Source of the DNA: Batrachochytrium dendrobatidis JAM81
Taxonomy: Eukaryota > Chytridiomycota > Chytridiomycetes > Rhizophydiales
Assembly (NCBI RefSeq): GCF_000203795.2
Contig: NW_006281102.1
Location: 1,478,582 to 1,542,581, forward strand
Reading direction: 5' to 3'
Length of the DNA stretch: 64,000 bases
Part shown: piece after piece, positions 3,200-43,181 of the stretch
Layout of the letters: each line of letters opens with the position of its first letter
Numbering within the stretch: position 1 is the stretch's first letter
Notes under the pieces: model-generated
Told to the model about the DNA's origin: nothing
What the model saw: only the letters and a program-made list of their open reading frames with translations
Databases searched by the model: none
Position numbers and translations under genes: made by a program

Positions 3200-4213
3200 T
3201 AGCCCTGCTTATCCGTTTAAAAAGGTTGAATGCTGCTTAGGGAACCTTCAAGATTTATGTTCAAGATTGTTTTACAGCCGCATTCACGCAAAATGAAACT
3301 TTTCTGCATCTTGCATCGACTTTTAGATAATCAATGCTTAAATATGCATTGTGCTTTCCTAATGCAAATTGATTTTTTAATAGACAGCGTCCGTCATATT
3401 ATACTCACAATCAAGCTCTATAGACTCATTCTTGTTGTATTTTAGTCTTGGATACGCTCACATTCTAGTTCAATCCAGCTTATACTTTTACATATTCATC
3501 TTTATTTTCCCATATGTTTTATGGCTTTTTGATGTGGATCTGTATGCTATCAATCAAAACCATGCATATATCTGACCATTTTCAATTGGCAACTTTTAAA
3601 CCACTCGAAATAAACTCGAGTATCTCAAATCTTCTAGATGCATGGCAGTATGAATCAATGCGGTGGTTTAAAAAAATCTACAATACTTTCCAGTTGCACA
3701 AGCCAGCAAAAACCCAGACTATCGAAATAAAGATCAATTTAAACTATGTATATATACGCTTACTACAATCGTATTCATGTAAAATGAAACACTAAATAAA
3801 TGTCAAAATACATGATAAACAGTCTCATATTTGGTGCCAATCTTACTGGACAATATTGTTTTTAAGCTCTTGGTTTACTAATCTTCATGCTCATTCTTGT
3901 ACAGAAATACAGAGCGAATGTTCACATCACATTCCATACCTTTTCAACCTCCAACTTTCCTCTCCTCCAAAACAAACATTTGAAGTAAACATTGCGTGAC
4001 TGGCATGTATGTTACATTCCTGAGATATGTTGAACTAAAACGTATCTGATATTAGGATACAACAGAGTTTCAATAAAAAATCAATTTACAATAATAACGA
4101 ATATGTAACGATTGTTTATTCCGGAGCAAAATAAAGGCTCCAACTGCAAGATAAATACAGAAAAGTGTTTCATTTTAAGTGAATACGGCTGTAAGTGTAC
4201 TAAGTTGGTAATC
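3200..4213. other. Intergenic, two family A element copies
   Basis: This gap is mostly element-derived. One terminal motif starts at about 3280 (GCATTCACGCAAAATGAAAC) and a complete element occupies 3771-4186. The right end of that element is only 28 bp past the stop codon of the ankyrin gene, so it probably lies in its 3' UTR. Confidence 0.6.
3771..4186. mobile_element. Family A TIR element (MITE-like), complete copy, 416 bp
   Basis: It starts GTATTCATGTAAAATGAAAC at 3771 and ends with the inverted form, gtttcattttaagtgaatac, at 4186. Between the ends it carries the family's internal landmarks: ...acatgataaacagtctcat near the left end, ...acgtatctgatattaggatac in the middle, and tattccggagcaaaataaag followed by tgcaagataaatacag near the right end. 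There is no coding capacity, so it is a non-autonomous element. The same landmarks recur in the other copies in this window. Confidence 0.8.
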
Positions 4214-7200
4214 TTATCCAGATGTCTCAAACCGCTTGATGCGATCTCTCACGCTTGCTGTTTTTGACATTGCCCCAGATATATTATTTGAAAATTCTAA
4301 ATCTGCTCGTAAAATAAAACTACTGTTTGCTTGAGGTTGAGGAGTAGACAATGGTTCTTCGGCAATTGCTTCGTTTGGTTTTGGAATGATTTTGGACGAG
4401 TAGTGTGGTTTTTGCTGCGATGGTGTAGACATGGGTTTGTCTGGTGATGTTGTCGTGCTCGATATGCCTGGCTTTGTATCCACAGCAGTTTGAGAATTCA
4501 ATGCTCTTCGTGGAGCAGCCGAATTGGCCTGTCCAGTAAACCCGCCAAGTCGTCGCAGTGGAGATTGCTTGGTCTGAGGCATATTTGCTTCAACAATACC
4601 AGGTCGGTTAAATGCCTGCCTGATCGAATCAACAGTTCCAGTTGCAACCACTTCATCTTGCGGCGGCTGGGCACCAACATATTTGGGTTTCATCTCAAAT
4701 GAAGACTCGGATGACCTCATTTCTTTAAACTCTCCCTTTTTAGATGAGTGCGATATTAAAGATGGTATTATTCCGGTTCTGGATGGAGATTCTGGATCTC
4801 GCACAAGCTTGGATGCACGACGAGACAGTTCAGATGGTCGTCGCAACACTTCGCCCGACTTCACCAATCCACTCACTTCTGGCCCATTGGCTGGTCTCAT
4901 CCATGGAAAATCACTAGTGATTTGATCATGTGTTCTTGTTTGTGACCCATTCCTAAGTCGAGTCTTTCTGGACGCAAACGTGTCCAGTCCAGCCGATGAA
5001 GAAAGTGGGTCTTGTGAATTTGCTGAAACTTCCAAATTGGATACGTGGCTTTCATCAGGAACTTGTAATGTTTGGGATTCCTTAAGTGGGGACGACTCAT
5101 TTTGAACTTTCTTGGCATCTCGATGTTTTGTAGAAACTGCTACCAGAGTATTCGACTGTGATTTTACCGCCTCCGTAATCGTTTCCGACTCTTTACTTGA
5201 TCCAGCCATAAAGTTGACTGTATTAGTTTTATGCTTTGATAAGGTATCCTGTACTTCTGATGTTGGCAAAGCGTCTGTTTTACGTTTGTAAAGTGACTCC
5301 ATGCTGCTTTTACTGCTGGATCTGCTAAGATTAGGAGGATCGGGTGGTACAGTTCCTGGCTTATTAAACTTTTCTTTGAGTCGACCAAACAATGACATAC
5401 TTGTTGAAGCTTCAGGTTTGGTATTGTGTAGTACTGCAGATGTTGGTGCTTCTGGCGCTTTCTTTTGCGATTCCTGAATACGTGGCAAATCTTTGCTCGT
5501 ATTGTCAGATCCAACAGTTTCGAGTTTTGTATTTGAAAAATCAGTGTTCAAATGTGATGCCGTCAATAAATCAGGTGTGCATGAAACGAATCCAAGCGAT
5601 GTTGGATTGTGCAATTGAGTCTCTAAATCCTCGATAGATTGAGTGGATTTCATGCCATCCAAAAATCCATAGATTCCCCTTGAAACTTTAGCTGGTTTTG
5701 ACGCTATTTTAGCATTCGTTTCAGCGTCTTTGATTGTTGATTGGTGTTGTTCCGTAACTTTGTGTGATGCAGATAATTTTTTTGCTAGTGATGGCGAACT
5801 TGAACAAGTCAAAGTACTAGATTGAATCGCAGCAGTCATTCTAGATTTGGGTGAAGTAGGAACGGGTATTCTTGAAATCAAACCAAGCGTGGAAGGTGTA
5901 TTAGAAGCCACGCTTTGTGAGCTGGTCGTTTCTGTCAAATTCTTTTGTGGGATACCACTCTTGCCATTACATTGGTCTGTTAAAACATTTGTAGAAGCAA
6001 CAGTGGTTATTTTTTCTGATTCAATAGTTTGGGATTCCTCAGTTGCATGCAGAGTGTTTTGGGCTGGCGTTGTTTGTTGTCGCTTTGATTCTATAGATAA
6101 TCTAGTCTCTAAATTGGATCGAGGTGTGGACAAGGTGTCTATTAATTTTAATGCATTGGATGCTTTGTTTTGAGTTGATTCTGTTTCAGTCAATACATCT
6201 GCCTTGTTTTGATGAATCGACGCATCGCTCGAGTCACCTTTGCTTAATGTTATATTACTTTCAACAAATTGATTCGAATTTCCATTACTGATTCTCAGAG
6301 CCCCAGGTACTGGATCGAGTATAGCAGATACAACTGTATTGCTTGAGTAGCAGGCAGCTGGTTGATTGATTTCAGTTGATCTCTTGAAACTTTCAGATTG
6401 ATGTTCTTGAGCCAACCCTGAAAAGGCTTTCTCTGATTGCTGTAGAGTTGAACTTACTTTTTCTAAATCTATAATATTTTTACTGGGTTCAGTGTATGTA
6501 GTTGATTCTTTTTGTGATAAATGTGTTGATATAGACCCTGATATCTGCGGTGTTGATGAAGATACAGAGTTTAGCTCATCAGAATTTGAGCAAAGAACTG
6601 GAGATGTGATTACATTGCCCTCAGCGAGCACTAGTCAATTGGAGTTCAAATCAAAAAATACATCTTTAGCCTTCATTTCATAGTACAATAGCAACAGCAG
6701 TGCCATCTCTACTCAATGCATAGATGCTTTGGTATCAGTAAAAACAAGACAGTTACTAGCACATTAAGTGATGCTAATTTAAATAATCCATATGAAGCTG
6801 TTGTATATTTAAATCAATGTTGGAATGTGCAAATCACTTACGTGCCGACGGATCTACACTTCGAGAATTGGCTACCAAATCTCCCATGAGTGATTTATCA
6901 GCATCTTCGGGATCTTTACGTCTTAGTGCAGACTTCATCATTGATGGTGCATGACTAAACCCAAACGGCATAGATTTATGTTCCTTTGATCGATGCTTTT
7001 TTTGTCCAGCAATCTCATCGATTTCATCATCGTCGCTCTCTTCCAAATCGTCCAAATCGCCTTCATCTATATAATTATTATCTACTTCATAGACATTTTG
7101 CGGTGGAGGCGGATATTTAGTTTTTAAAGTTTGAAACAATGCTGCGATTTGGTCTTGCTTGCCATCAAACGCAATATCCTCGGGAATCTCATCGTCCTCA

Positions 7201-9271
7201 TTCAATGGAATCAAATCAATTGGTCCATCAATAGGATAAAGCCAATCTGCGCATTCTGGCTTGGATATATTTTCGGCTTCCGTGCCATAGACGCCTTGAC
7301 ATCTCCCAAGCAACTCAATGATTGGAATGTTTCCCTCTGCCGATGCGCAATGTAATGGTGTCCAGCCTTCACAGTCACGAACATTCACTGCTACATGTGC
7401 CTCCTGTAGCAACATCAATGCAATATCATATGCAGCATGACTACAAGCAAGGTGTAGTGGTGTAAGTCCTTGTTGCGGCGAAAACAAACTATTTACATCA
7501 ATACGCTTAGATGAATCTACTGGTAAATCGAGTCCCAGTAACGATCGCACCAAATCACATCGATTTACAGTCGGATCATCGTTGTGCTGACAAAGGTGCA
7601 GAATCATTGTGGAGGGGTCAAATCCAACTGTTTTTTTGGATTTAGGTTTCAAAGGTGGTGGCTGTTTAAATGACTGTGCCAAACTTTTAGATGCATCTTG
7701 ATTGCGGGATAATTCACCAATACGAAAATCGCCATTGACTGTGCCAGATTTAGTTAGTTTTCGTAAACGACTGTCCCGCGGTGAGCCCGGCTCAATAGAT
7801 GATGATGCAGAATCGGCTCGTTGGCGACTGGAACTATCCCAAGAACTGCTTTTGGAATGAGATCCAGAAGGTTCGGAAATGACTCTGGGTGATGCATTTG
7901 GCACTGCCTGCAGCCTCAAGTCTAGTATGTCATTTCTTTTGTCAGAAATTTCCTTTGCTGCACCGTGATGTTTAGCTTGATCGACTATATTTTAGAATGG
8001 CACAGGATTGTATAGATCAAATGTTGATAAATAGTCAAACATAGAGTTAGCAATCCAGATCGTGGTTGAATAGATTTAAATATGGACTTTTATATATCAC
8101 CGCTTTCCAAATTGCATACAGCATGATTAAAGCAGAGTAAATTCAATCTTATCATAATGTACCCATGCTATAAAACTGATGCTTCCTGATTCACGTAGTT
8201 CAAATACATACTTTCAGTAACCGTCTCAAACATCTTTCTGGTGCAATCATCGTCAGCACAGTCCACCGGTCGATACTTTCTTTCATTGAATTTTCCTGGC
8301 GCAGCACCCAATTCTAAAAGCCTCTTGACTAACTCGCTCATTCCTAAAAATGATGCCAAATGCAGCACAGTATTGCCATTTCCCCAGATCCGACCCATAA
8401 ACTCGTAAAGAACCTTTCGTGCATCTATTTCATCTGTTACATGAACTACAAAGTCTAAAATCACCATGGCTATTTCTTCGTCTCCCAAGATACATGCTAT
8501 TTGAATGGCATTGAGGTGTTCCATGCTGAGTGTATTAGAATTCAAGTAGATCGTGGATAATCACGTTTGTATTGGCATGCCAGGGGACAGTCATAACCAG
8601 TATTACACAAGGTTAGTCGATGAGCAATGATAATATAAGACGTTAGGATAAATTCATTGCCAGCTCCAAATGATGCAATAAAAATAGAATGGGCAGTGGT
8701 GTAGGATGGGCTGTAATCTCATATACTTGAAGATTGTAGATACAACGAGAATATCATGGCATTCACAAACTCCAAGCATGCCAAAACACACCTATATAGA
8801 ATACTGAATTCTATTTACCAGCATGCATACTCCAATGCAGTTACATACCAGAAAAGTAGAAATAAAAGGATATGGCAAAGCAAGATAGACAATGAACATG
8901 TACCTTGGACCTAGAAGCTCATGAGCGTCTTGCATAACCTCTGGATCATGCTTATAAAAGTTGTCTCGATTTGGATAGGAAGTGGTCAGCAGCATCTGCA
9001 ATACGGCAGTAGAGGACGAATAAAGACTAAACACATTCTTGAGATGGTCTGTATCGCCTTCATTGACAGCAGTAAACACGGCGCGCTCCAATGCCATTGG
9101 GTCGTCTAGGCTGACACCCAACATGTCAGACATTGCAGTACTATCCATGGGCTTTGCAGATAATAGTTCGTTGCTATTAAAACTAAGCGAGGTTTCTGAC
9201 AGAGACTTTTCCTGGTTCTGTTGTAGTTCCATCAAGGAATCCTGCATCTCCTGGTCTGCAAGTGTGGTCAT
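4214..9271 (-). CDS. Large ankyrin-repeat protein with long disordered C-terminal half
   Basis: Four exons: 9271-8904, 8525-8212, 7921-6842 and 6630-4214. All phases join, giving 1,392 residues. Ankyrin-type helices appear at about 125-200 (NAIQIACILGDEEIAMVIL, GNTVLHLASFLGMSELVKR) and about 385-445 (GLTPLHLACSHAAYDIALML, GWTPLHCASAEGNIPIIELL). Between them KKTVGF at about residue 324 fits a PP1-docking RVxF pattern. An acidic stretch (DDLEESDDDEIDEI) follows the second block. The last 800 residues are Ser/Thr/Gln-rich and probably disordered, ending KTASVRDRIKRFETSG. Ankyrin plus RVxF recalls MYPT-type PP1 targeting subunits, but the usual order (RVxF just before continuous repeats) is not kept, so no orthologue is claimed. 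An in-frame ATG at 9391 could extend the N terminus by 40 residues; 9271 was preferred because the extra part has no recognisable feature. Confidence 0.72.
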
Positions 9272-15875: not shown

Positions 15876-16899
15876 GGCAAAAGAAATGAGAATGGAGAGA
15901 TGGAAAATAAAATGAGAAATTGTCAGCGCCATCAGTGTGTTTTTTGCAAATATCGGTGGATTGTTCATCTGTTGATTTGAATGGCACGAGCATACATTGC
16001 TCGTATCTCCTTACCACGACGACAATCTGATTTGTCGTCACGGTCAGTTTGCTAACCGGCTTGCCGCTCCTCTCGATTCAATATACGACATCGCTCATTT
16101 GGTTTAGCGGCAGCTGCTTGCTGATCTTGGTGCTGTTTTGACAGGCGTCAAAGTTTCACATGGTATAGTATGTATATTAACTTAAAACTGTTATTTCCAA
16201 AATGCTGCAACAACAGCTTGCTTGATGCTGTCTGAATACTATCAAAATATGATGAGATTGGGTTGTTGGAATATAAATAAATGGAAGTTTCTGCGTTTTC
16301 ACTCCCTTTGTCGCTTAATGAATCGTTATTGACATTATGGATAGGCAAAACCATAAAATACATATTCTATTAGAGTTGAGACGATATCAAGGTTTAACAA
16401 TACACGAGAGTCTGCTGGTAACTATAAAACGATCAAAATTTAACGCCATTAATAAAGATGACGATGCAGTTGTGGAACAGACAATTCATTGGGTGAATCG
16501 AGAGAGGTGGATAGTCCCAAAAACAATCCATCCTGTTTCTCGCTCAAAGATCGAGCTCCAACAAGCGCAAGCAAAAACCATCAGCATTTAGATGTTGATG
16601 GGTGCCGTGTACGCTTGGTTGCAACACTGCATTATGCACGAGCCTGGACTGTATGCGAAGCCTCCCATCTCTCATTCTGATGGCGACGCGAACTTGCAGC
16701 CTATAGACGCGAATCTATCCCGAAGCCCCTTCCCCAGACTCCAAAGGGCACTGTGAATTGATAGTGAGAGTTGCAGAGGCAACAAATAGCCCAACCATAC
16801 AAAAAAGTGGTTGAATGAAATCGGTATACTTTTTAAATGATACACATTGCAAATGGTTGACAATCTTTCATTTATCTTTCCGCTCTCATCTCTTTTGTC
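15876..16899. mobile_element. Family B TIR element, long copy (about 1.02 kb)
   Basis: The left end (15876 onward, GGCAAAAGAAATGAGAATGG) and the reverse complement of the right end (GACAAAAGAGATGAGAGCGG, reading back from 16899) form imperfect terminal inverted repeats of about 45 bp. Both run on through a purine tract to aaattgtcagc / agattgtcaacc. The left 346 bp of the interior (15909-16254) recur at 23850-24195 with no net length change and only a few base differences. One 84-codon frame (16337-16591, plus) exists inside but resembles no transposase I know. It lies immediately upstream of the CCDC146 start, on the promoter side. Confidence 0.72.
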
Positions 16900-23839: not shown

Positions 23840-24238
23840 GAAAACAGAGAAAATGAGAAATTGTCAGCGCCATCAGTGTGTTTTTTGCAAATATCGGTGG
23901 ATTGTTCATCTGTTGATTTGAATGGCACGAGCATACATTGCTCGTATCTCCTTACCACGACGACAATCTGATTTGTCGACACGGTCAGTTTGCTAACCGG
24001 CTTGCCGCTCCTCTCGATTCAATATACGACATCGCTCATTTGGTTTAGCGGCAACTGCTTACTGATCTTGGTGCTGTTTTGACAGGCGCCAAAGTTTCAC
24101 ATGGTATAGTATGTATATTAACTTAAAACTGTTATTTCCAAAATGCTGCAACAACAGCTTGCTTGATGCTGTCTGAATACTATCAAAATATGATGGTTGC
24201 TGGCAATCTCTCATTTTATTTTCTCCTCATCTCTTGTC
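23840..24238. mobile_element. Family B TIR element, short copy (about 0.4 kb)
   Basis: Positions 23850-24195 repeat 15909-16254 in the same orientation at constant offset (7,941), with only scattered substitutions (for example gtcgtcacgg versus gtcgacacgg). The right end, gctggcaatctctcatttta, is the inverted form of the left end aaaatgagaaattgtcagc. This copy looks like an internal-deletion derivative of the longer copy at 15876-16899. It sits 36 bp past the stop codon of the BAG gene, probably in its 3' UTR. Confidence 0.75.
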
Positions 24239-24273: not shown

Positions 24274-26103
24274 CTATAATGACGATAGGTTTTTCGAATG
24301 AGCGACAACCTGCTCCTTCAATCCGTCCAAAATATCCAATTGTCCTTGAATAAGCCGCACTGCTTCCCGCCTTTTAGCTCGCAATTCAGTCTCGTTGGAC
24401 TCACATTCTACTCCGTCGATTTTTAGTAGGCACTGCAAGAGTGATTCGCTAATACGCGCATATTCATCGTGCAACTGCTTTGGTGTGAGTGTGTTGGATG
24501 AGCTTTTGTCATGTAAAAGAAAATCATCTGCATGTTTCTTGTAAGCACCAAAAAGGGGCTGGATTATAGTCTGTGTGTACTCAATCTGATCATTAAGCAA
24601 TTTAAAGAGTCGCTCCTCTCGAGGAAGCTCAGGCTCTTTAGGCAGCACAGGATGAGTCGGCGGCGGTATCCTTGGAGATGTGGTTGTTGTAGATGGGCCC
24701 CAATTCTGCTTTGGTCGCTTATCAACAAGCATCATGACTTTAGATCCAGTCCCAAGACCGTAAAATGAGAGTGGTGCATCCATATCCAACATCACGACTG
24801 TAAAATCAATTGATAAATTGATGGCATATTTCAAAAAGCAGTATAAAGTAGTGATGAGTTAAAATAATGATAAAAAGTTAGTCTAATCTCTGTTATAAAC
24901 CTATTATAACCCATGCATCAAGTAGACATAGGATACAGTTGTATTCACGTAAAATGAAACACTAGATATGCTAAAGTGTATAGTAAACAGCCAGTTTACT
25001 GAAACATGCTGTCCTCTGAACTCCTTGACAAAGTTTACTGATCTTTCTCTTGATAACTGACATGGAAACAACAGTTATACTTTCGAGATGTGCAATCCCT
25101 GCTCTTGGACTAGAGCACAAACGTATCTGAGGGCGTTAGGATACAAAGTACAATTCTATTGACAACACCAAAACAGTGGAACCCAATATATGGATTGCAA
25201 TACACGAATCTAGCCATCGTACAATGTATGGCTATGCAAAATGAGAATAATCCCAGTTCAAAACTACAGTTTGTGAACATCCTATGATGGTCGTTGTGTT
25301 TTGAGAAACTGACATGTCAATTTCCAGTAGGAAATGCAAACATTAAAGCACTGTCTATTCCGAAGCAGAATAGACATTGCAAGATAGTATTCCATTTTAC
25401 GTGAATATACAAGATAAATAGATAGATTAAATGAACATCACTCAAGATCCGCACCCCATGAACCAGAATCTTCCCCTATTGTTCTGCTGCTGCCGTCTTC
25501 TCTACTATTGCTACTTCCTGAATCACCACTCCCTGATCCATCCAATCGATCTAAAAATCCAGTGACCGCATTCGACCCCTGCTCAACAAGATCCATAAAC
25601 TTGCCCCATGCAGAAACTGCAACGCTGGAGCTATCCCTATCACCGCTGCTTTTTTTTCTGGGCAATGGATGCTGAGATTGTTTATGGTTTGAATGTTTCG
25701 ATGCTGAACTGATTCTGTCAGGAATGGTGAACGAACTCTGCTCGCTCGATTGGTTACGCAAAGGTGATGATGAGTAGAATGTACTAGAGTATTCAGCTGA
25801 AGTCCGAGTATGAGGAGTCCTAGAAGCAGCAGCAGACGACTTGGAAGGGGAAGACCGAGTCCCTATAGGGCTATGGCGGTTTGAATCAGTAGGAGGATAT
25901 CGACGACTTGGAGGATGACGAGATCTCTCACCACCAGATGACAACAGCTTGATGTTTTCTGCAGGCACTCTGGATTGTTGCGACAGCTGGTCAATTAGTT
26001 GTCTTAAAGTCACTGCATCTGCCCATTCATCGCCCAGCCGTGTGTACTCTGAATCAAAAGATGTTTGGAACTTGCGGCCTTGAAATGTGACTGTTAGGGA
26101 CAT
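24274..26103 (-). CDS. BAG-domain Hsp70 co-chaperone with split ubiquitin-like domain
   Basis: Two exons: 26103-25932 and 24797-24274, giving 231 residues. The N terminus is a ubiquitin-like domain (MSLTVTFQGRKFQTSF...IDQLSQQSRVPAENIKLLSSG). It continues across the intron as VVMLDMDAPLSFYGLGTG and SKVMMLV, the order seen in BAG1. A Pro/Thr linker follows, then the BAG domain at about residues 120-225 (EYTQTIIQPLFGAYKKHADD...REAVRLIQGQLDILDGLKEQ). BAG domains bind the Hsp70 ATPase domain and promote nucleotide release. The intron is unusually long (1,134 bp) and holds a complete family A element. Reading straight through the donor GTGAGAG stays open to a stop at 25438, which would give a 221-residue Ser/Arg-rich protein ending WGADLE. 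The ATG lies 12 bp from another family A end (26116). Confidence 0.85.
24941..25408. mobile_element. Family A TIR element, complete copy, 468 bp, inside BAG intron
   Basis: The left end is GTATTCACGTAAAATGAAAC at 24941; the right end, tattccattttacgtgaata, closes at about 25408 in inverted form. Internal landmarks are a cagccagtttactgaaac block, acgtatctgagggcgttagg, gtacaatgtatggctatg and ctattccgaagcagaataga. No coding capacity is present. Its left half matches the copies at 3771 and 30504; its right half matches 22168-22297 and 57780-57812. Confidence 0.85.
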
Positions 26104-26115
26104 GGTTTATCTTGT

Positions 26116-26215
26116 GTATTCACGTAAATGGAACTTTATCTTGCAGTCACTATTTTGCTTCCAAATAACCAATATTTAAATGCTCGTTTGCTTTCCTACC
26201 AATTGACTGCTCCAA
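26116..26215. mobile_element. Family A element end next to the BAG start codon
   Basis: The motif GTATTCACGTAAATGGAAC begins at 26116, followed by tttatcttgcagtcac and a stretch (tgctttcctaccaattgac) that recurs near 3355 and 63275 after similar ends. It occupies the probable 5' UTR or core promoter of the BAG gene. The inner boundary is uncertain. Confidence 0.55.
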
Positions 26216-26847
26216 TAAACGCAACGCCCATTATATGACGCTCACAAGCAATCTTGGCAAGAATAAAGGCCGAGTTGCGCAGATTGAAATATACATTGGA
26301 ACAAATTATACTCAATAGCACTACAATCTTTATTCAGTCAATAGACGCACACAACATGTTTAACCCATATGCTCTATGCAATCTGATAGGCTTGTGCTGC
26401 CAAATTCAACTCATACTCATTCAGTCACTGCAATAATTGATACTACCACACTTTACATGTAGCTTATTAAACAATATATAACCCGATACCATGACAAGCA
26501 ACCACGATCTGGTGTCTATGCAACTCGAAACAGTGTCAATCAAATCTAATCCATCAACTCTGACAACACTTTAACCCAGTCAAAACACTCAACATTCACT
26601 GCTACATCTCAACGTTGATCAAGTGTTGGATGTATGGCCCAGCGGTATTGCAATGATCGATACTAACACTCCAACTGAAACCAGCATATAAAAAACACTC
26701 GATTGATTAGACATGGAAATATTGTAAATTGTATCTAATGTAGTGAATTCATTTGAAAATTAAAATACTATGATGGACAAATAGACAGTATAGTTGCAAC
26801 ATGCACACTAGAGTCGGTAGACTTCAAGTGATAATGCAGATCTGACA

Positions 26848-27813
26848 TTACAACACATCGGTGACTAGTGAAATAATGGCAGTGGTCAATACAGCCAAAG
26901 CAAGATGTGCGTTTATATCACCAAGTATGCTCAATGAACTGGATACTAGTCCTGCACCAGTGTGTGGCATTGGTGCAGTTTCACCATTTGTACCAAGTTG
27001 TGATGTGGACAATGGCATGTGTTGAGTCGATGCTGATGCCGACATTGAACTGGAAGACTGTTTAAGAGTCTGCGTTAAAACAGGCGATTGGACTGTTGTT
27101 TGATCAGAAGCGTGAGTAAGACTAGAAGAGACTACTGACTGCGACGATGGCAACTCGGCTGGTTGTTGAGGGATCTGTGAGTGTGTTGGCTTGCGAGTGG
27201 TGGAATCTGGACTTGATTCAGGTTCAGGTTTAGGTGCTGGCTCAGGTTCAGGTTTGGGTGTTGGTTCAGGATCTGAGTTGGGAGTTGGAGTTGGATGAGG
27301 TTTACCAGAAGACCCAACTGGAGGAAGCAAATATGCAGGCAGCAGATTACGCTGTCCAGGAGTGCATTCTTCTGGAGATCCAAAACATGTGCCGCTGCAG
27401 TAACTCTGCGAGGTAATTCTCCACGAACAAGTCTGTGGGTCCAACGCATTGGCACCTGGAAAGGCATTTTGGAAACTAGTGTGCGACACATCCAAACCAG
27501 GCGCTCCTTTTTGGTCTACAGCCAACACGAACATTGATGGTCCGCCTGCTGCATTTCGGAATTCAAGACACTGTGCACACATGCTTGAACCAAGTCCATT
27601 TACTGCCACGATACGCTGAATGTTGAGTGCCGAGTATCGAATACCGCACCATCCAGGTGCATTATCATATGCTGTTGCACCAAGTCGCGCAAGATCTTCT
27701 TCGTATGGATGATATGTACACGGACCAGTAGACCATCCGTCAGACTGAGCAGACACGCTGGAAATCAACAAAACAGTAGCAACAAACGACAGTGCACGAT
27801 TAATAAAATGCAT
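26848..27813 (-). CDS. Secreted expansin-like (DPBB) protein, Pro/Glu-repeat linker, left copy
   Basis: Single exon, 321 residues from the ATG at 27813. That start gives a clean signal peptide (INRALSFVATVLLISSVSA); an upstream in-frame ATG at 27966 would bury it. Residues about 25-150 form a double-psi beta-barrel of the expansin/RlpA kind: STGPCTYHPYEED, GWCGIRYSALNIQ, CAQCLEF and the core GLDVSHTSFQNAF with LDPQTCSWR. Eight or more Cys suggest disulfides. A linker of PEPxPKPEP repeats (about 175-200) and a Ser/Thr-rich stretch follow. The last 25 residues are hydrophobic (LALAVLTTAIISLVTDVL), suggesting GPI anchoring. Expansin-like proteins loosen or bind wall polysaccharides without hydrolysis; the substrate here is unknown. 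The right copy differs by Asp versus Glu in the linker. Confidence 0.85.
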   Translation of the reverse strand: MHFINRALSFVATVLLISSVSAQSDGWSTGPCTYHPYEEDLARLGATAYDNAPGWCGIRYSALNIQRIVAVNGLGSSMCAQCLEFRNAAGGPSMFVLAVDQKGAPGLDVSHTSFQNAFPGANALDPQTCSWRITSQSYCSGTCFGSPEECTPGQRNLLPAYLLPPVGSSGKPHPTPTPNSDPEPTPKPEPEPAPKPEPESSPDSTTRKPTHSQIPQQPAELPSSQSVVSSSLTHASDQTTVQSPVLTQTLKQSSSSMSASASTQHMPLSTSQLGTNGETAPMPHTGAGLVSSSLSILGDINAHLALAVLTTAIISLVTDVL

Positions 27814-28176
27814 GAGTAATGGATTATGCTGGTGTAAATGTATAAATGTTCTAGTTGCAGAATATGTATTCGAGTATAATAAATAAATGGGTTTGCTATT
27901 TGGCAGTAATTGGGAGTCGGAGTATTTTGTGCCTGAAACGAGGGAAGCAGGCCGTTCTTTTATCACAATTTTGTTACAAATTTGTTACTGATACATAGTG
28001 GCACTTGGATTGTTTCGTGGCAGGGATTGCACAATGCCAGAGTAAAACCGACCCTTTGTGTAACAAGCAAGCCATCAATCAGTAATTATTGCATTATTGC
28101 GATTTATTTCGGTCTGTTTTGTTGGCAACCCCTGAAATTCGCTGATTAATTACAACTAAAAAAATAAGTGATCTGA
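27814..28176. other. Shared upstream region between expansin-like and small ORF
   Basis: About 360 bp between two same-strand ORFs inside the arm. It contains no other ORF of note. The same sequence occurs inverted at 32295-32657, so any promoter here is duplicated as well. Confidence 0.4.
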
Positions 28177-28503
28177 TTATTTAGGATCAACAATGTGAAA
28201 TCTTGTCCCAATAAAAAATAAGACAAAACTACAAGCCAGTCCGAGCTTGAACCCCAACAGTCTACAAAATACCCTGCTATATACTGACCCTTCATAACCT
28301 AGCGGAGTTGTGCAATAATTGGGGTGTTGCAATTGTCTAGTCATCGCCAGCCAATCATACTCGACAATAGCGACTGCCACCCCAAAATAAAGCGACTGTT
28401 CACAATTATATGCACAGCCATCAAATGCATTCGCTATAAAGTGATGTGCAGCTACAAGCTTGGATAGTAATAAGAGTGTCAACCACGGCGTCCATTTAGC
28501 CAA
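28177..28503 (-). CDS. Small signal-peptide ORF, left copy (108 aa, unknown)
   Basis: A 108-codon frame beginning MAKWTPWLTLLLLSKLVAAH, which looks like a signal peptide. A Cys-containing segment follows (CAYNCEQSLYFGVAVAIVEY) and then a hydrophobic C-terminal helix (LGFKLGLACSFVLFFIGTRF). It could be a small secreted or membrane-anchored protein or a remnant. No family is recognised. An identical copy lies at 31968-32294. Absence of homology and small size keep confidence low. Confidence 0.4.
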   Translation of the reverse strand: MAKWTPWLTLLLLSKLVAAHHFIANAFDGCAYNCEQSLYFGVAVAIVEYDWLAMTRQLQHPNYCTTPLGYEGSVYSRVFCRLLGFKLGLACSFVLFFIGTRFHIVDPK

Positions 28504-29631
28504 CCCTTATTTTGATCATATTGTGTAAATAGTGTGATATTGATACAGTCCAAAGTCTGATTGGTTGATCTTTACGCTTTTGTCGCAGTCACCATATTTG
28601 CATGGCTTAATTGTATCAGACATTATCCAAACTATTGGTGCTTTGATAAACTAGCAAATCTACAGTGGTATTTTTAGTCAATATATGACAAAGCGTGGCT
28701 TGATTCGACTACTCTACTTGATGCCGCTTGTAATATAATGCCAGTATATTTATTTTATATACATTGATCCAGTTAAAATACATACCATTATTTCACTTGT
28801 CGCATTAATACTACGACTCGGATAAACCCAACTGTTGGTATTGAAAATGGTCAACAATCAGACATTGGTATTCTTAAATGCATGTGATGGCCAATGTGGG
28901 GCCGTTACAGTATTTGGTTTGCCGAATATTACATTATTTGGAAACGACAAATATCGGTTAAAATGCAATTTAGCTCAACTATTCGAGTCTTGAGCTCATG
29001 GACACCCAGTCCCCTTGTACCTGCATCATTATTGACCGAGTTGATTGCATATACACTACATTTGTACAAGACTTTATGAAACAGCATCGCTTTTGGACTA
29101 CTACATGGGTTTTGGTTAATCTGGATGCTTATAACAGTTGATGCGTATGATATGCTTAAAAGTCACTACAGTCAAAGAGATACAGCAATGACCATGCTAT
29201 TGCATGATAATCGACATTTGTTATGGACGAGACCTGAAAATCGGAAAAAATGCTTATCGACCGTCATTGTAGGGACTATGATGTGCATGTATCAGAGGTG
29301 TTGCTGTGTAGCATACTGTATTATAGCACCGAGTTTCGACTACAACGGTGCTTTCGGCTTCAGCCATCTCGGCTTTAAAGCATGCCATTTTGATTCATCC
29401 GCTATATTACATGCCTTATTGCTGTTTACTTGCAATAGTATGATGCTGATGTATTGTAATAGAATACATCATTGAGTTATCATTCCCAGTTCAAAGTGTT
29501 TGATTTACTGTCAAATGAAATCGGATGATGTTCAGATAGTTGTAGAATAATCACTGTCAGGGCTACACAGTGTTCAAGCCATTTATTTGAATTATTGAGT
29601 GGTTTCATTCGATTAAACTCAATCTATGGTT
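28504..29631. other. Arm sequence without a convincing gene
   Basis: About 1.1 kb of the left arm. Open frames of up to 116 codons exist (29125-29475, plus) but the translation is Met/Cys-rich without domain or signal features, and I do not treat it as a gene. The same sequence is present inverted at 30840-31967. Confidence 0.4.
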
Positions 29632-29670
29632 GTATTCACCCAAAATGAAGTATATTTTGCTGATCGATAC
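29632..29670. mobile_element. Family A left-end remnant at inner breakpoint of left arm
   Basis: The motif GTATTCACCCAAAATGAAG starts at 29632. Its first seven bases (29632-29638) are shared with the end of the arm and the rest belongs to the unique spacer. It is followed by tatattttgctgat, as in other family A ends. Confidence 0.65.
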
Positions 29671-29785
29671 AATCACTCCCTTATAAAACTGAGTAGAGGA
29701 AAATCATGTTTCATTTAAATCCGAATTTCAAACCAGGAAACAAGTCAATCAAGTCTAGTAAGCGAATGTATCGGCGTGCATAGAA

Positions 29786-30064
29786 TCATTGGGCTTGTGC
29801 TTTTTTCCTATATTTCTTTAATGAATCCTTTGGAATGTGTTTCTTTTTGTGGTGAGGTGGGCTAGGGCCATCACTCGTTCCTGGCACTTGTGAATCCTTG
29901 GGTGTTGGTTTTTTAATTTTTTTGAAGGGGTTAAATCCACCACAGCAGCCGGTATTGCTGGGGGTTTCTTCCAATTCCTGTAGAGATTGAGACAATACTG
30001 GGGACGGCGCGGCCATTACCAATTGCGAGCAGGCCAAGGTGAATAGTAAAGAAACAAGTTGCAT
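29786..30064 (-). CDS. Small secreted Lys-rich protein in the inverted-repeat spacer
   Basis: Single-exon 92-residue protein. MQLVSLLFTLACSQLVMAAP is a clear signal peptide with predicted cleavage after AMA/AAP. The mature part has one Cys pair (NTGCCGGFNPF), then a strongly basic, Pro-rich C-terminal half (KKIKKPTPKDSQ, HHKKKHIPKDSLKKYRKKAQ). No family is recognised. Small basic secreted proteins are common candidates for wall- or host-interacting factors in chytrids, but that role is inference. Unlike its neighbours it lies in the spacer and is single-copy in this window. Family A ends lie on both sides. Confidence 0.65.
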   Translation of the reverse strand: MQLVSLLFTLACSQLVMAAPSPVLSQSLQELEETPSNTGCCGGFNPFKKIKKPTPKDSQVPGTSDGPSPPHHKKKHIPKDSLKKYRKKAQAQ

Positions 30065-30503
30065 GGTTGTTGAGAAAGTAGGCTGCTATTAGTTGTCTTT
30101 GTCAATGGTTTAAAATTAGATGCGAATCTTGATCGGTTTATATAGTAAACTAGTGCATTATCAGGGCTAGGTTGTACATTGATAAATCTCCCTTTTAGAG
30201 GCCTTGCATGAATAGCGCTTGAGCCATTAGTGTTCTAATGTATGATTTAGGAAGCTTTCAATGCCATTTAAACTTGTGCAATACTCCCTTGCTTATATAA
30301 CATCATCCTTTATACTTTCCTTGCATTGCTGCTGTAACCATATCCAATCTGTGAACTTGCTTAATATGCGCGCATCAATTATCATTGAGAAACCCTTTCG
30401 AGTCCTGACATTTACCCTAGCACTCATGCTTGACCGTCCCTAAAAGTCTAAAATCCATGTCAACCATCATATTTTATCTAAAAGCAGCCGTTTAATCACT
30501 GCC

Positions 30504-30839
30504 GTATTCATGTAAAATGAAACATTAAGGGAGTCGAAGCACATAATAAGCATCCAGTCTTATGGAATGACTGGTCTCGGACAATCACTGGTAACGTGTC
30601 TTTTAAACCCTTTAGCCTAGTAGGGTTTCTTTGGACAATTAGCATGAAAGCAACAGTTGCATTTCTGGAATGTGTAATATTGGTTTGTTGAGCTAGAGCG
30701 CAAATGTACGAGATTTTAGAATATATAGTTTGTAGTTTGATTGGTAATATCAAAGATCGAATCTAATATTTAAACTAAAATGCGTGAATCTAATTTCAAA
30801 CTTGATAATCGTACAATGTATGACTATGCCAATGAATAC
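30504..30839. mobile_element. Family A element, copy ending at inner breakpoint of right arm
   Basis: It starts GTATTCATGTAAAATGAAAC at 30504 and carries family landmarks (gcatgaaagcaacagttgca, gagctagagcgcaaatgtac, gtacaatgtatgactatg). It ends with TGAATAC at 30833-30839, the inverted terminal bases. The usual segment just inside the right end (cgaagcagaatag...tgtttcattttac) is missing, so it is internally deleted. The terminal TGAATAC is also the first bases of the right arm. Confidence 0.75.
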
Positions 30840-31967
30840 AACCATAGATTGAGTTTAATCGAATGAAACCACTCAATAATTCAAATAAATGGCTTGAACA
30901 CTGTGTAGCCCTGACAGTGATTATTCTACAACTATCTGAACATCATCCGATTTCATTTGACAGTAAATCAAACACTTTGAACTGGGAATGATAACTCAAT
31001 GATGTATTCTATTACAATACATCAGCATCATACTATTGCAAGTAAACAGCAATAAGGCATGTAATATAGCGGATGAATCAAAATGGCATGCTTTAAAGCC
31101 GAGATGGCTGAAGCCGAAAGCACCGTTGTAGTCGAAACTCGGTGCTATAATACAGTATGCTACACAGCAACACCTCTGATACATGCACATCATAGTCCCT
31201 ACAATGACGGTCGATAAGCATTTTTTCCGATTTTCAGGTCTCGTCCATAACAAATGTCGATTATCATGCAATAGCATGGTCATTGCTGTATCTCTTTGAC
31301 TGTAGTGACTTTTAAGCATATCATACGCATCAACTGTTATAAGCATCCAGATTAACCAAAACCCATGTAGTAGTCCAAAAGCGATGCTGTTTCATAAAGT
31401 CTTGTACAAATGTAGTGTATATGCAATCAACTCGGTCAATAATGATGCAGGTACAAGGGGACTGGGTGTCCATGAGCTCAAGACTCGAATAGTTGAGCTA
31501 AATTGCATTTTAACCGATATTTGTCGTTTCCAAATAATGTAATATTCGGCAAACCAAATACTGTAACGGCCCCACATTGGCCATCACATGCATTTAAGAA
31601 TACCAATGTCTGATTGTTGACCATTTTCAATACCAACAGTTGGGTTTATCCGAGTCGTAGTATTAATGCGACAAGTGAAATAATGGTATGTATTTTAACT
31701 GGATCAATGTATATAAAATAAATATACTGGCATTATATTACAAGCGGCATCAAGTAGAGTAGTCGAATCAAGCCACGCTTTGTCATATATTGACTAAAAA
31801 TGCCACTGTAGATTTGCTAGTTTATCAAAGCACCAATAGTTTGGATAATGTCTGATACAATTAAGCCATGCAAATATGGTGACTGCGACAAAAGCGTAAA
31901 GATCAACCAATCAGACTTTGGACTGTATCAATATCACACTATTTACACAATATGATCAAAATAAGGG

Positions 31968-32294
31968 TTGGCTAAATGGACGCCGTGGTTGACACTCTTA
32001 TTACTATCCAAGCTTGTAGCTGCACATCACTTTATAGCGAATGCATTTGATGGCTGTGCATATAATTGTGAACAGTCGCTTTATTTTGGGGTGGCAGTCG
32101 CTATTGTCGAGTATGATTGGCTGGCGATGACTAGACAATTGCAACACCCCAATTATTGCACAACTCCGCTAGGTTATGAAGGGTCAGTATATAGCAGGGT
32201 ATTTTGTAGACTGTTGGGGTTCAAGCTCGGACTGGCTTGTAGTTTTGTCTTATTTTTTATTGGGACAAGATTTCACATTGTTGATCCTAAATAA
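31968..32294 (+). CDS. Small signal-peptide ORF, right copy (108 aa, unknown)
   Basis: Identical in translation to the copy at 28177-28503: signal peptide MAKWTPWLTLLLLSKLVAAH, Cys-containing middle and hydrophobic C terminus. It runs toward the right-hand expansin-like gene on the same strand, with about 360 bp between them. Same low confidence as the left copy, because intactness of both copies is explained by the recency of the duplication. Confidence 0.4.
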   Translation: MAKWTPWLTLLLLSKLVAAHHFIANAFDGCAYNCEQSLYFGVAVAIVEYDWLAMTRQLQHPNYCTTPLGYEGSVYSRVFCRLLGFKLGLACSFVLFFIGTRFHIVDPK

Positions 32295-32657
32295 TCAGAT
32301 CACTTATTTTTTTAGTTGTAATTAATCAGCGAATTTCAGGGGTTGCCAACAAAACAGACCGAAATAAATCGCAATAATGCAATAATTACTGATTGATGGC
32401 TTGCTTGTTACACAAAGGGTCGGTTTTACTCTGGCATTGTGCAATCCCTGCCACGAAACAATCCAAGTGCCACTATGTATCAGTAACAAATTTGTAACAA
32501 AATTGTGATAAAAGAACGGCCTGCTTCCCTCGTTTCAGGCACAAAATACTCCGACTCCCAATTACTGCCAAATAGCAAACCCATTTATTTATTATACTCG
32601 AATACATATTCTGCAACTAGAACATTTATACATTTACACCAGCATAATCCATTACTC

Positions 32658-33623
32658 ATGCATTTTATTAATCGTGCACTGTCGTTTGTTGCTACTGTTT
32701 TGTTGATTTCCAGCGTGTCTGCTCAGTCTGACGGATGGTCTACTGGTCCGTGTACATATCATCCATACGAAGAAGATCTTGCGCGACTTGGTGCAACAGC
32801 ATATGATAATGCACCTGGATGGTGCGGTATTCGATACTCGGCACTCAACATTCAGCGTATCGTGGCAGTAAATGGACTTGGTTCAAGCATGTGTGCACAG
32901 TGTCTTGAATTCCGAAATGCAGCAGGCGGACCATCAATGTTCGTGTTGGCTGTAGACCAAAAAGGAGCGCCTGGTTTGGATGTGTCGCACACTAGTTTCC
33001 AAAATGCCTTTCCAGGTGCCAATGCGTTGGACCCACAGACTTGTTCGTGGAGAATTACCTCGCAGAGTTACTGCAGCGGCACATGTTTTGGATCTCCAGA
33101 AGAATGCACTCCTGGACAGCGTAATCTGCTGCCTGCATATTTGCTTCCTCCAGTTGGGTCTTCTGGTAAACCTCATCCAACTCCAACTCCCAACTCAGAG
33201 CCTGAACCAACACCCAAACCTGAACCTGAGCCAGCACCTAAACCTGAACCTGAATCAAGTCCAGATTCCACCACTCGCAAGCCAACACACTCACAGATCC
33301 CTCAACAACCAGCCGAGTTGCCATCGTCGCAGTCAGTAGTCTCTTCTAGTCTTACTCACGCTTCTGATCAAACAACAGTCCAATCGCCTGTTTTAACGCA
33401 GACTCTTAAACAGTCTTCCAGTTCAATGTCGGCATCAGCATCGACTCAACACATGCCATTGTCCACATCACAACTTGGTACAAATGGTGAAACTGCACCA
33501 ATGCCACACACTGGTGCAGGACTAGTATCCAGTTCATTGAGCATACTTGGTGATATAAACGCACATCTTGCTTTGGCTGTATTGACCACTGCCATTATTT
33601 CACTAGTCACCGATGTGTTGTAA
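32658..33623 (+). CDS. Secreted expansin-like (DPBB) protein, right copy
   Basis: 321 residues, single exon from the ATG at 32658; same domains as the left copy. These are signal peptide, DPBB domain with GLDVSHTSFQNAF and LDPQTCSW, PEPxPKPEP linker, Ser/Thr-rich stretch and hydrophobic tail suggestive of a GPI signal. The only difference seen is Glu (GAG, third base at 33200) where the left copy has Asp (GAT), in the linker NSxPEPTP. Near-identity means the two genes probably make the same product, doubling dosage, unless the inverted structure is an assembly product. The two copies are transcribed away from each other. Confidence 0.85.
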   Translation: MHFINRALSFVATVLLISSVSAQSDGWSTGPCTYHPYEEDLARLGATAYDNAPGWCGIRYSALNIQRIVAVNGLGSSMCAQCLEFRNAAGGPSMFVLAVDQKGAPGLDVSHTSFQNAFPGANALDPQTCSWRITSQSYCSGTCFGSPEECTPGQRNLLPAYLLPPVGSSGKPHPTPTPNSEPEPTPKPEPEPAPKPEPESSPDSTTRKPTHSQIPQQPAELPSSQSVVSSSLTHASDQTTVQSPVLTQTLKQSSSSMSASASTQHMPLSTSQLGTNGETAPMPHTGAGLVSSSLSILGDINAHLALAVLTTAIISLVTDVL

Positions 33624-34840
33624 TGTCAGATCTGCATTATCACTTGAAGTCTACCGACTCTAGTGTGCATGTTGCAACTATACTGTCTATTTGTCCATCA
33701 TAGTATTTTAATTTTCAAATGAATTCACTACATTAGATACAATTTACAATATTTCCATGTCTAATCAATCGAGTGTTTTTTATATGCTGGTTTCAGTTGG
33801 AGTGTTAGTATCGATCATTGCAATATCGCTGGGCCATACATCCAACACTTGATCAACGTTGAGATGTAGCAGTGAATGTTGAGTGTTTTGACTGGGTTAA
33901 AGTGTTGTCAGAGTTGATGGATTAGATTTGATTGACACTGTTTCGAGTTGCATAGACACCAGATCGTGGTTGCTTGTCATGGTATCGGGTTATATATTGT
34001 TTAATAAGCTACATGTAAAGTGTGGTAGTATCAATTATTGCAGTGACTGAATGAGTATGAGTTGAATTTGGCAGCACAAGCCTATCAGATTGCATAGAGC
34101 ATATGGGTTAAACATGTTGTGTGCGTCTATTGACTGAATAAAGATTGTAGTGCTATTGAGTATAATTTGTTTTTGAACACCATTTCCTTTTTTAATATTC
34201 AAACCTTCACCATAGACATATCATGCTATATTCCACGCTAATATATACAACATTCCATTTTGACTCATTCGTGCTTATTATTATGGAACTGAGTAGTATT
34301 TGCTTCATGATTATTGCATCCTTTTGTTTACGTAGCATTATTTTGTCCTATATAGCCTACTGTAATATTTTTAAAAGCATACTAGTAATACTGTTAGTGT
34401 TTTGATAAAGCAATGCTGACTATTCCAATAGTAAAGATACCAAATACTGGTTGGTGTGCTTATTTGCAAGTGTTTGTTATTCAAATGGGTTTCTGTTTGG
34501 TATATTTTCAACGGTAATAGTTTATAATTCATGCTTGATTTATAGATATGGTAGTTCAAAGAACATGATGGTCCAATGATTTACAACATATGCGCGAATA
34601 GCTCTTGAATTCGCGATTGTTTTCAGCAGTTTCTCAATTTTGATCATGTACTCCCTAGAAAGCATATTTCTGGTGTTTGATCTTATAATGAATTGCCCCG
34701 AGATTTTAAAGCACATTGGAATAAACAAATTTCAGGAATCCATTTATTTGGATAGCTCAACTGCATGTGCATTTCAACTCGACATATCGCCGAGTTGAAA
34801 TTAAACATGCAATACGTGTTAAAAGTAACCCATAAATGTG
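33624..34840. other. End of right arm and unique spacer
   Basis: Positions 33624-34171 belong to the right arm (the 3' side of the expansin-like gene). Positions 34172-34840 are AT-rich unique sequence with no gene I can support. Confidence 0.45.
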
Positions 34841-36781
34841 TTACAAAGGGATAGTCTCGGTCTGCATCCGAGCCGACGGGATGGATGCAGGTGAAGCTAT
34901 CGACTCTTGAGAATTCACTTCAATATTTTCGGTTTTTATCTTTTTGATTATATTTGTTGTTTTTGTTTGCGATACCAATTGCTCCAAAACTCCAGGTTTT
35001 AGTCTTGGATGGCCCTTGTCAAAATTTACAGGAGGTCCAGCCACACCATTAGCCTGCATAAAATCATAATTGAAGTCAAAGTGTACAGGGGTATATGCGG
35101 GTGAAGCTAGCTTATGCCGCTCGGTAATCGCATGTCGCTGCCGATCTTCCACTATACGCTTTTCTTTTGTTGCTGTAGTGAAATCTTTTTTTAGCAGTGC
35201 TTCAGTGACTTTTTGCCATACCCTGTATATTCAAATATCCAATATGTCAAGAGAATATTAGGATTGTGCGACGTTATATACTTGAATGTGTCATGGTACA
35301 AATAAATTAACATACCGTTGACTTTCCAGCTCGTGTTGATTGGCCAAGTCCTGAACAATTTTTGGTTCGACATCCGATGTCTTCATATCAAACAAGAGTA
35401 TATCTTCATTTGATCCAGCTAGCCGATAAAATATCTGACCGTTCCATTGACCAGATAAAGTGCATAGCAAATCTTCTTTGGGAACAAGAGAGAGTTTCTC
35501 TGAATCTTTTCGTTGCTTGGGAGTCAGATTCGAGTTCTTTTGAAAATCGTATTTGAAAATCTTTCCATTGATGGCGAATTTGGGACGACCAAAATACGAC
35601 TATACAATAAAGTATGAGTCAACAAATACATGGTTTACAGCTGCTTAGTGCATGAATCTCACCTCTTCCACGTACTGCAAGATTGCCTTGATACCGGATT
35701 TAGGGCATATGATTACAGTCTGCTCACTGACAACAATATATGGCGAGCTTGTCAACAACCCATGAACAGTAGCCCAGGCATGAGTGATATTATAAACCTC
35801 ATCGTGGTCCTTTAGTGTGATATAAACGCCCGAGTTGTATTCTCCTGGTCCAACTTTAAAAGCGGTCCCAGTGAAACGAGCAACAACATGATCGAGCCCA
35901 CTAGCAACTATACGGGCGTCGGCAGTTGTATAGGTAAATGCAGAGATTGGAGGATAGTGAGAAACCTGCTCATTGATGCAGAACAGAGTTGTTTCTTTAG
36001 ATGGTGGCTGAGCCTTGTCCGACTGATCGAGGTCTGCAGCAGAAGACACTTTTGTCAGACTTTCGTGTGCGATGTTGGGATCGCAAGGAACTTTCCAATG
36101 ACAAATATACCGCTCTCCTAAAATGGGATTGTAAGGCTTTCGCAGTTGGTGATCCTATCATTGCAGGGTCAGTAAATAGTGCATACACTTATTTGTCAGT
36201 CTACTTGTTTATAAAAAACTCTTCCACATTCATAGGATAGCTGGATGATTCTGATAGAAATACCTTCCACTTTGTGTCTTTTGAATACCAAAATCGAATT
36301 ACTCGCAGCATTCTTTCGAGTGGATCTACTCCATCTGGAATGCTAATCCACACAAGCACAATTAGTATAGTTAATTATTTTGCTCAATAGCCATATCTGT
36401 ATTGTCTGTTCAAACATATACATTTCATAGTTGATGGACTTGCCTTACAAATATATCTGGACGGTCGACATAATTCCAGAATTCCAAATTAGACTGAGGC
36501 TCCATCAAATTAGCAGGCAATGATATTCTCCTACAAATGGATAAAATCATATTGTCTAGTGAGCATATATGAGGATGGCTTTAAAAGCCACTAATGGTGA
36601 TGACTGATTGGTCACTTGTTTTTAAAACTTACATGCTAACCAAGTCCTTGGCACCAACAAAGCGAGAGAGTAGACTGGCTATAAACTGGAATTTTGAGCC
36701 ATTCCCATTGAACTCGACATGCTCAGGCACATTGGTGGCGATGGGAGTAGTAGTGTTTTTAGGAGTATTAACAGTGCTCAT
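34841..36781 (-). CDS. Oxysterol-binding-protein-related lipid-transfer protein (Osh/ORP)
   Basis: Six exons: 36781-36633, 36530-36444, 36342-36264, 36154-35663, 35599-35316 and 35222-34841, giving 490 residues. It consists of the ORD domain only, without PH or ankyrin parts. Hallmarks are ISLPANLMEPQSNLEFWNYV, DPLERMLRVIRFWYSKDTKW, KPYNPILGERYICHW and the signature, which here reads EQVSHYPPISAF. The family signature is EQVSHHPP; the second His is Tyr (codon TAT). In known Osh proteins the His pair contacts the PI4P phosphate, so ligand use may differ. The C-terminal helical part (WQKVTEALLKKDFTTATKEK) is typical. The intron after exon 2 appears to use a GC donor (AAG|GCAAGT), because the GT at TTT|GTAAGG would leave exon 3 out of frame. 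Confidence 0.88.
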
Positions 36782-43110: not shown

Positions 43111-43181
43111 TGCGCTAGCCCGGAATTGAACCGGGGGCTCATCGATGGCAACGATGAATTTTACCACTAAACCACTAGCGC
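43111..43181 (-). tRNA. tRNA-Gly (anticodon GCC), second copy
   Basis: Base-for-base identical to the tRNA at 635-705, read on the minus strand from 43181 to 43111. The downstream flank is T-rich (tttttgttttta), as in the first copy, and acts as a Pol III terminator. An LTR-like dispersed repeat begins about 50 bp upstream of the gene. Confidence 0.96.

Follow-up and report, generated by a model that had tools for sequence, protein, structure and literature searches.

The window analysed here (the whole stretch of 64,000 nucleotides from Batrachochytrium dendrobatidis JAM81) contains two long arms in inverted orientation, which are separated by a short spacer. The left arm (26300..29638, reverse strand) and the right arm (30833..34171, forward strand) each comprise 3,339 bp and pair position by position, with coordinates that sum to 60471 and with no indels, and the spacer (29639..30832, no strand assigned) has a length of 1,194 bp. 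The arm length, the coordinate sum and the spacer length had been given in an initial annotation and were reproduced. In addition, a single base difference had been noticed, but there are three mismatches (26645/33826, 27271/33200 and 28669/31802), giving an identity of 99.91% and a difference of 0.09%. The mismatches are scattered and do not cluster at the edges, and the likeness is full-length, up to sharp ends.

Such a match goes far beyond what chance would produce. Of the six inverted pairs listed in the window, the one next in length has 86 bp and lies around two tRNA-Gly genes; an Rfam search of the whole window at gathering scores yielded two tRNAs and nothing else. Searched against the genome, 2,001 bp of the arm gave three matches, namely both arms and a paralogue match of 204 bp at 74% identity. 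The contig has 1.6 Mb, and the site lies within it at a distance of about 87-95 kb from the end, with different sequence to its left and right.

Beyond the left arm lies a gene with a BAG domain, represented by two open reading frames (24274..26103, reverse strand). The right flanking gene (34841..36781, reverse strand) encodes an oxysterol-binding protein in several exons, its start and exons having been assigned by eye, and its end lies 670 bp away from the right arm. The spacing of locus tags in other strains was tried as a guide to the interval: the BAG gene corresponds to RTP6_001852 and the oxysterol gene to MT418_003854, which belong to different annotations and hence give no gene count between them. 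The spacer contains a small open reading frame (29786..30064, reverse strand) of 92 amino acids with a start that resembles a signal peptide by eye; its one weak relative (43%, E 8.8e-4) lies on the same contig.

The expansin/barwin-like gene of the arms

The gene product is a secreted single-domain expansin/barwin-type protein of 321 amino acids, with one gene per arm, at 26848..27813 (reverse strand) in the left and at 32658..33623 (forward strand) in the right arm. The initial annotation had described duplicated expansin-like genes; near-identical copies of a secreted expansin-like gene are indeed present, but each arm carries only one credible gene. One of the three mismatches alters an amino acid, codon 181 specifying Asp in the left copy and Glu in the right copy, and Glu181 is also the residue in BDEG_21947 of JEL423. 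The best protein match of the gene is a B. dendrobatidis gene.

The predicted fold of about residues 24-177 resembles the structures of expansin domain 1, sugarwin, barwin-like proteins, loosenin and cerato-platanin, and the model shows the double-psi beta-barrel domain 1 of two-domain expansins. Neither the proteins of the window nor the families listed for the 15 A1 members include a Pfam match to the carbohydrate-binding domain 2. The predicted fold is the feature shared with barwin/expansin domain-1 proteins and single-domain fungal loosenins and cerato-platanins. Unlike those proteins, the product has a Pro/Ser/Thr-rich tail (residues 177-300, mostly with pLDDT below 50), a hydrophobic C-terminus, and a score with the Barwin family PF00967 of 18.1 bits (E 0.0026) that stays under the curated Pfam cut-off of 21 bits; at E 0.01, Barwin matches occur in 8 of the 15 members of A1. 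The protein is possibly GPI-anchored. With NCBIfam, the gene gave six matches, all far under the cut-offs and all starting in the low-complexity tail (at residue 164 or later), while three other open reading frames tested had no match. Protein clusters were also considered as a source of copy number. P0001 has four members on one contig, as do P0012 and P0041; since P0012 nevertheless occupies one place in this genome, such counts are uninformative.

A dispersed repeat at the putative breakpoints

The spacer had been called unique, which holds for the spacer taken as a whole, yet it contains pieces of a dispersed repeat. The 5' part of this repeat (30639..30832, forward strand, model positions 2-199) stops at the final base of the spacer, exactly at the junction with the right arm. 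A 3' part of the same family (26115..26251, reverse strand, model positions 232-400) is located 48 bp outside the left arm. The two pieces lie on opposite strands, the 5' part within the end read as inverted and the 3' part beyond it, which is the arrangement of a split sequence. When the spacer is turned back, they form one collinear match to the repeat model, from position 2 to 400, with 211.8-212.0 bits versus 126.7 and 83.1 bits for the pieces as found. Furthermore, the four bases TTGG stand at the left cut end (26296..26299, forward strand), and the same four bases on the reverse strand close the spacer at 30829-30832; TTGG begins at 0.67% of the window positions. The junctions that would be new lack long homology: 26299/26300 shares 0 bases, and 30832/30833 shares at most 2 bp (TG) if the common TTGG is counted once.

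A repeat terminus, TTGTATTCACCCAAAATGAA, runs unbroken across the junction between left arm and spacer (29630..29649, forward strand), and therefore this junction looks ancestral. The terminus TTGTATTCANNNAAAATGAA has 27 matches in the genome, compared to 0 for the reversed control, and one of these matches crosses the left inner junction.

It should be noted that the 44 bp between the repeat halves are not element-like, the rejoined sequence scoring 211.8 bits, no better than the medians of 214.6 after shuffling of these 44 bp (n=200) and 215.5 after their replacement by random window sequence (n=200). Lone 3' parts of the repeat are common (22 of the 52 chains in the sample, the piece at the left arm included), and another one in the window, at 22171, also begins at model position 232, so that this position may be a family boundary rather than a cut. 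The chance that a lone 3' piece lies on the required strand within 60-100 bp of either breakpoint was estimated at 0.0007 to 0.008, using the density in 250,105 bp; the arithmetic took two other pieces starting at model positions 190-260, a recount gave three, and the latter number was used for the lower figure.

Possible origins of the inverted pair

The split repeat and the shared TTGG point to one physical rearrangement. On the simplest reading, to which we give about an even chance, the inverted duplication is the scar of a genuine, small and recent inversion of spacer and arm in which a second arm copy stayed behind. Inversions with breakpoint duplication carry inverted copies of one segment at both ends of the inverted stretch, and the two arms have this arrangement. 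The ancestral order would have been the BAG gene, an intact dispersed repeat, the spacer in the opposite orientation, a single arm carrying the expansin-like gene, and the oxysterol-binding-protein gene. One break in the dispersed repeat and one break region spanning the arm would have led to the inversion of spacer and arm (about 4.5 kb), while the second arm copy would have stayed in place, resulting in the order arm (reverse), spacer, arm (forward). The left arm would then be the inverted, newer copy, the right arm the copy still in its original place, and the spacer inverted relative to the ancestral order. Two complete gene copies would result, each with about 1.8 kb upstream. Two variants can be envisaged. 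Staggered breaks might have been filled in upon rejoining, with a stagger of 4 nt at the left and 3.3 kb at the right, or a replicating end might have jumped to a template at the far end of the arm, copied arm and spacer in the backward direction, and then returned. Whereas the arms, the cut repeat, the common TTGG and the unbroken terminus at the left inner junction are read directly from the sequence, the order in the ancestor, the single step and the existence of the molecule as assembled are inferred.

A two-step origin makes use of the same ancestral-order evidence and appears rather unlikely: an inverted arm copy would first have entered the dispersed repeat, TTGG being the 4-bp target duplication, and the spacer would have been flipped afterwards when the arms recombined. 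Long, near-identical inverted arms are good substrates for a recombinational flip, and arms of 3.3 kb with 99.9% identity would suit it. However, two events are needed where one suffices, and a target-duplicating insertion of a 3.3-kb segment without a visible transposon gene would be odd.

An assembly artefact is improbable. In that case, the structure would stem from chimeric reads or from two alleles joined wrongly, and no chromosome would carry the inverted copy. The 0.09% difference between the arms is about the level expected between alleles: the data set of PMC3744429, as far as its available text goes, contains 761,000 bi-allelic heterozygous positions, which by our own arithmetic is roughly 1.5 per kb if they are spread over the 22 genomes named in its legends. 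In addition, an inverted repeat of 385 bp stands at the end of the contig. Nevertheless, both base-exact new junctions agree with one rearrangement, and a plain fold-back yields neither a 1.2-kb single-copy loop nor a return to the right flank. The window is free of N, there is no indel between the arms, and ten 10-kb stretches of contig C1 contained no repeat pairs, inverted ones included, of at least 150 bp at 85% identity or more, a sampling that reveals only pairs fitting inside one stretch. A head-to-head join of two haplotypes, which the initial annotation had named as one option, would not by itself create two new junctions; as the split repeat and TTGG fit one rearrangement, it was set low.

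Simple insertion, in which left arm and spacer are ancestral and an inverted arm copy was inserted where the spacer met the right flank, agrees with the ancestral look of the left inner junction. The cut repeat should then resume at 34172 onward, but its 3' part was not found at this right outer flank (best score -3.3 bits); the fitting part sits at the left flank instead, and the order expected from inserting the right arm leaves the repeat halves apart. This origin is quite improbable.

A very recent duplication and gene conversion between the arms had both been suggested, and both fit the near-identical arms. Gene conversion is common between nearby inverted copies, the arms are inverted and close together, and the six direct repeat pairs found on this contig show greater divergence (95.1-98.8% identity), but an old duplication homogenised by conversion is very improbable, being superfluous if the event is young and at variance with the full-length likeness and the spread differences.

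Comparison with known rearrangements

The locus is likely to be a clear example of a known rearrangement type, and its likely origin via a split repeat a new result. As with the inversion of D. subobscura described in the accessible part of PMC7584159, the inverted stretch is bordered by inverted copies of a segment from the breakpoint, a pre-existing breakpoint sequence is split between both ends, and the joins lack long homology. Unlike in the fly, where the duplicated stretches have 58 and 534 nt, the duplicated segment of this fungus has 3.3 kb, which is long for a stagger and exceeds the 1.2-kb spacer, no more than 4 nt are duplicated at the other end, and the ancestral order is a reconstruction. 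With template-switch and fold-back inverted duplications, judging from extracts of PMC3907307, PMC10766183 and PMC11790251, the locus shares a single-copy spacer that parts the inverted copy from its source; unlike in those cases, there are only two arm copies with unique sequence beyond both, and no triplication or terminal inverted duplication was seen. ODIRA-type or palindromic amplicons have at least three copies and an inverted centre, whereas no third arm copy is present in the assembled genome. In the literature on inverted duplications or expansins in Batrachochytrium, as far as the available excerpts go, no inverted-duplication paper is evidently about this locus.

The engineered yeast construct IR-1000 (2-kb arms, 1-kb spacer) has nearly the same geometry, and its behaviour after a break is therefore the best guide for this locus, although in yeast the break was induced nearby. 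According to the available portion of PMC6103520, it gives mostly inter-molecular annealing and dicentric dimers, with fewer fold-backs. The proposal of a hairpin-capable palindrome has to be toned down accordingly, fold-backs being the lesser product in yeast.

If the molecule is real, it would be a single-sequence example of a small inversion that doubles a secreted gene in a pathogen of amphibians that is mostly clonal, and the split repeat polarises the hypothesis by indicating which arm moved and which junctions are new. The 99.9% identical inverted pair would make variant calling from short reads unreliable within the arms. A young inverted repeat of this kind would be able to flip its spacer or to swap sequence between its arms. 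That the locus is a still-active flip cassette, in which arm recombination repeatedly turns the spacer, together with its small secreted open reading frame and its repeat pieces, between two divergent promoters of expansin-like genes, is a long shot; if true, individuals within clonal B. dendrobatidis populations would differ at a secreted-protein locus in orientation, in copy number or in both.

The inverted arms and their gene

The inverted duplication was confirmed as a sequence feature: the left arm (26300-29638, -) and the right arm (30833-34171, +) pair over 3,339 bp without an indel, around a spacer of 1,194 bp (29639-30832). The initial annotation had noticed one base difference between the arms, but their comparison yields three substitutions (left/right: 26645/33826, 27271/33200 and 28669/31802), a divergence of 0.0009 (Poisson 95% interval 0.00019-0.0026). 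A whole-genome search with 2,001 bp of arm sequence returned three matches, namely both arms and a 204-bp match (74%) to a paralogue on contig C12. Since the window occupies C21:1478582-1542581 on a contig of 1,600,105 bases, about 87-95 kb separate the duplication from the end of the contig.

Each arm carries one credible gene for a protein of 321 aa (26848-27813, -; 32658-33623, +), and the 5' ends of both copies point to the spacer. The substitution 27271/33200 alters codon 181, which specifies Asp in the left and Glu in the right arm. Among proteins matching the gene product, BDEG_21947 of Batrachochytrium dendrobatidis JEL423 (P0001) ranks best, with 97% identity across 97% of the query; outside its leader, its sole mismatch falls at this codon, where it has Glu, as in the right arm. 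The N-terminus of the BDEG_21947 model takes 19 residues out of an upstream ORF (28177-28503), followed by VSAQSDGW (window 27760-28351, mirror 32120-32711), and omits the signal-peptide-like start of the window gene; it reflects an unusual splice form or else an error in the model.

Both termini of the 321-aa protein are hydrophobic, with 17-residue hydropathy peaks that begin at residue 7 and at residues 304-305; this points to a signal peptide and possibly also a GPI anchor. The interior comprises a Cys-rich domain, which is conserved, and a tail rich in Pro, Ser and Thr. Against Pfam Barwin the protein reaches 18.1 bits, below the cut-off of 21, and a profile of 15 relatives has weak matches to sugarwin, a papaya barwin-like protein, Epl1 and barwin (E 0.0013-0.083). 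The structure prediction, which has a mean pLDDT of 66 overall and block means of 77-96 across residues 21-160, matches structures of expansins, sugarwin, barwin-like proteins and cerato-platanin. Because of these profile and predicted-structure matches, the designation "expansin-like" is fair for domain 1; expansin domain 2 was looked for in the protein and not found. The homologues number 39, and all 26 that have an organism name belong, as we presume from these names, to zoosporic (chytrid-type) fungi.

A dispersed repeat at the junctions and the origin of the duplication

Matches of the spacer elsewhere in the genome repeatedly stop at 30832, its final base. They belong to a dispersed non-coding repeat about 490 bases long, which also occurs at 25057-25420, 57495-57882 and many other places genome-wide and has a conserved terminus, TTCATTTTACGTGAATAC, close to one end; Rfam found nothing but two tRNAs in the window. 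A repeat model of 494 positions, built from 39 unique sequences with the region itself left out, gave 60 hits, joined into 52 chains, in 250,105 bp (the window and 19 stretches): 24 chains have both parts, 22 only the 3' part, five only the 5' part, and one is of another kind. The spacer's chain is the only one of the five 5'-only chains that extends past model position 165, ending at 199, at the right-arm junction. A 3' part (model 232-400) lies outside the left arm at 26251-26115, on the strand opposite to the spacer's 5' part.

When the spacer is turned round, bringing its right end to the left flank, a single collinear element (2-400) is restored, with 212.0 bits versus 126.7 and 83.1 unturned. 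The pieces remain apart in the alternative simple order, and the 3' part was sought in the right flank and not found. Given the density in the sample, a 3'-only piece would fall by chance on the required strand and within 60-100 bp of either of two breakpoints with a probability of 0.0007-0.008, the strict bound using three other pieces instead of two. TTGG is common to both cut ends. The repeat terminus TTGTATTCANNNAAAATGAA (27 genome matches versus none for the reversed control) spans the left arm/spacer junction unbroken; of the two inner junctions, therefore, this one is probably ancestral and the right one new. Together, the rejoined repeat, TTGG and the intact terminus would give the ancestral order BAG gene (24274..26103, -) - repeat - reverse complement of the spacer - arm - oxysterol-binding protein gene (34841..36781, -), from which spacer and arm would have been inverted with a second arm copy retained. 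This origin is plausible and testable.

Two observations speak against it. The repeat model is a poor match for the 44 bp expected to form the element's middle, the rejoined element scoring 211.8 bits, below the medians of both controls (214.6 with the 44-bp stretch shuffled, 215.5 with random window pieces in its place; 200 trials each). In seven of the 24 chains with both parts, the alignment is likewise interrupted in the middle, so the misfit is tolerable, though not supportive. Furthermore, a second lone 3' part beginning at model position 232 is present in the window, at 22171, and position 232 may thus be a family boundary instead of a cut.

Mechanism, rival explanations and stability

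PMC7584159 states that isochromatid and chromatid forms are indistinguishable by pattern and that repair alone is another possible cause; it also cites single-stranded DNA of up to 3 kb at stalled forks, to which the 3.3 kb found here is close. A template-switch route would yield an identical product. The main rival to the inversion is a two-step history, in which an inverted insertion was followed by a flip. An assembly artefact is unlikely: the arm divergence does approximate allelic divergence in the species, by rough arithmetic from PMC3744429, but one rearrangement would account for both junctions, the loop consists of 1.2 kb of single-copy DNA, and ten stretches of contig C1 gave no other inverted pair (at least 150 bp, at least 85% identity). 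At this threshold, the whole sample contains eight repeat pairs: the arms, an inverted pair of 385 bp at the end of the contig, and six direct pairs, one of them in the window and the other five elsewhere on C21.

Inverted repeats of 2 kb in yeast, separated by a 1-kb spacer and located close to a break, undergo mainly sister-chromatid annealing, giving dicentric dimers (PMC6103520). By analogy, the locus may be unstable, chiefly by means other than a hairpin.

Other repeats nearby

The 385-bp repeat at the end of C21 (L033 7140-7524) is inverted relative to a 99% identical copy about 12 kb inward (L032 4898-5282); neither TTAGGG nor CCCTAA occurs in the final 7.5 kb of the contig. Another recent duplication near the window consists of head-to-tail repeats of about 2.2 kb with 98% identity (L027, C21:1470000-1478581, at local positions 3647-8262), which encode small secreted-looking proteins starting MKLLIAVLSSILVACSVT. 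Within the window, a 346-bp direct repeat (15909-16254 and 23850-24195) is 98.8% identical, and two tRNA-Gly (gcc) genes (635-705, +; 43111-43181, -) lie in opposite orientation inside a 97% inverted repeat.
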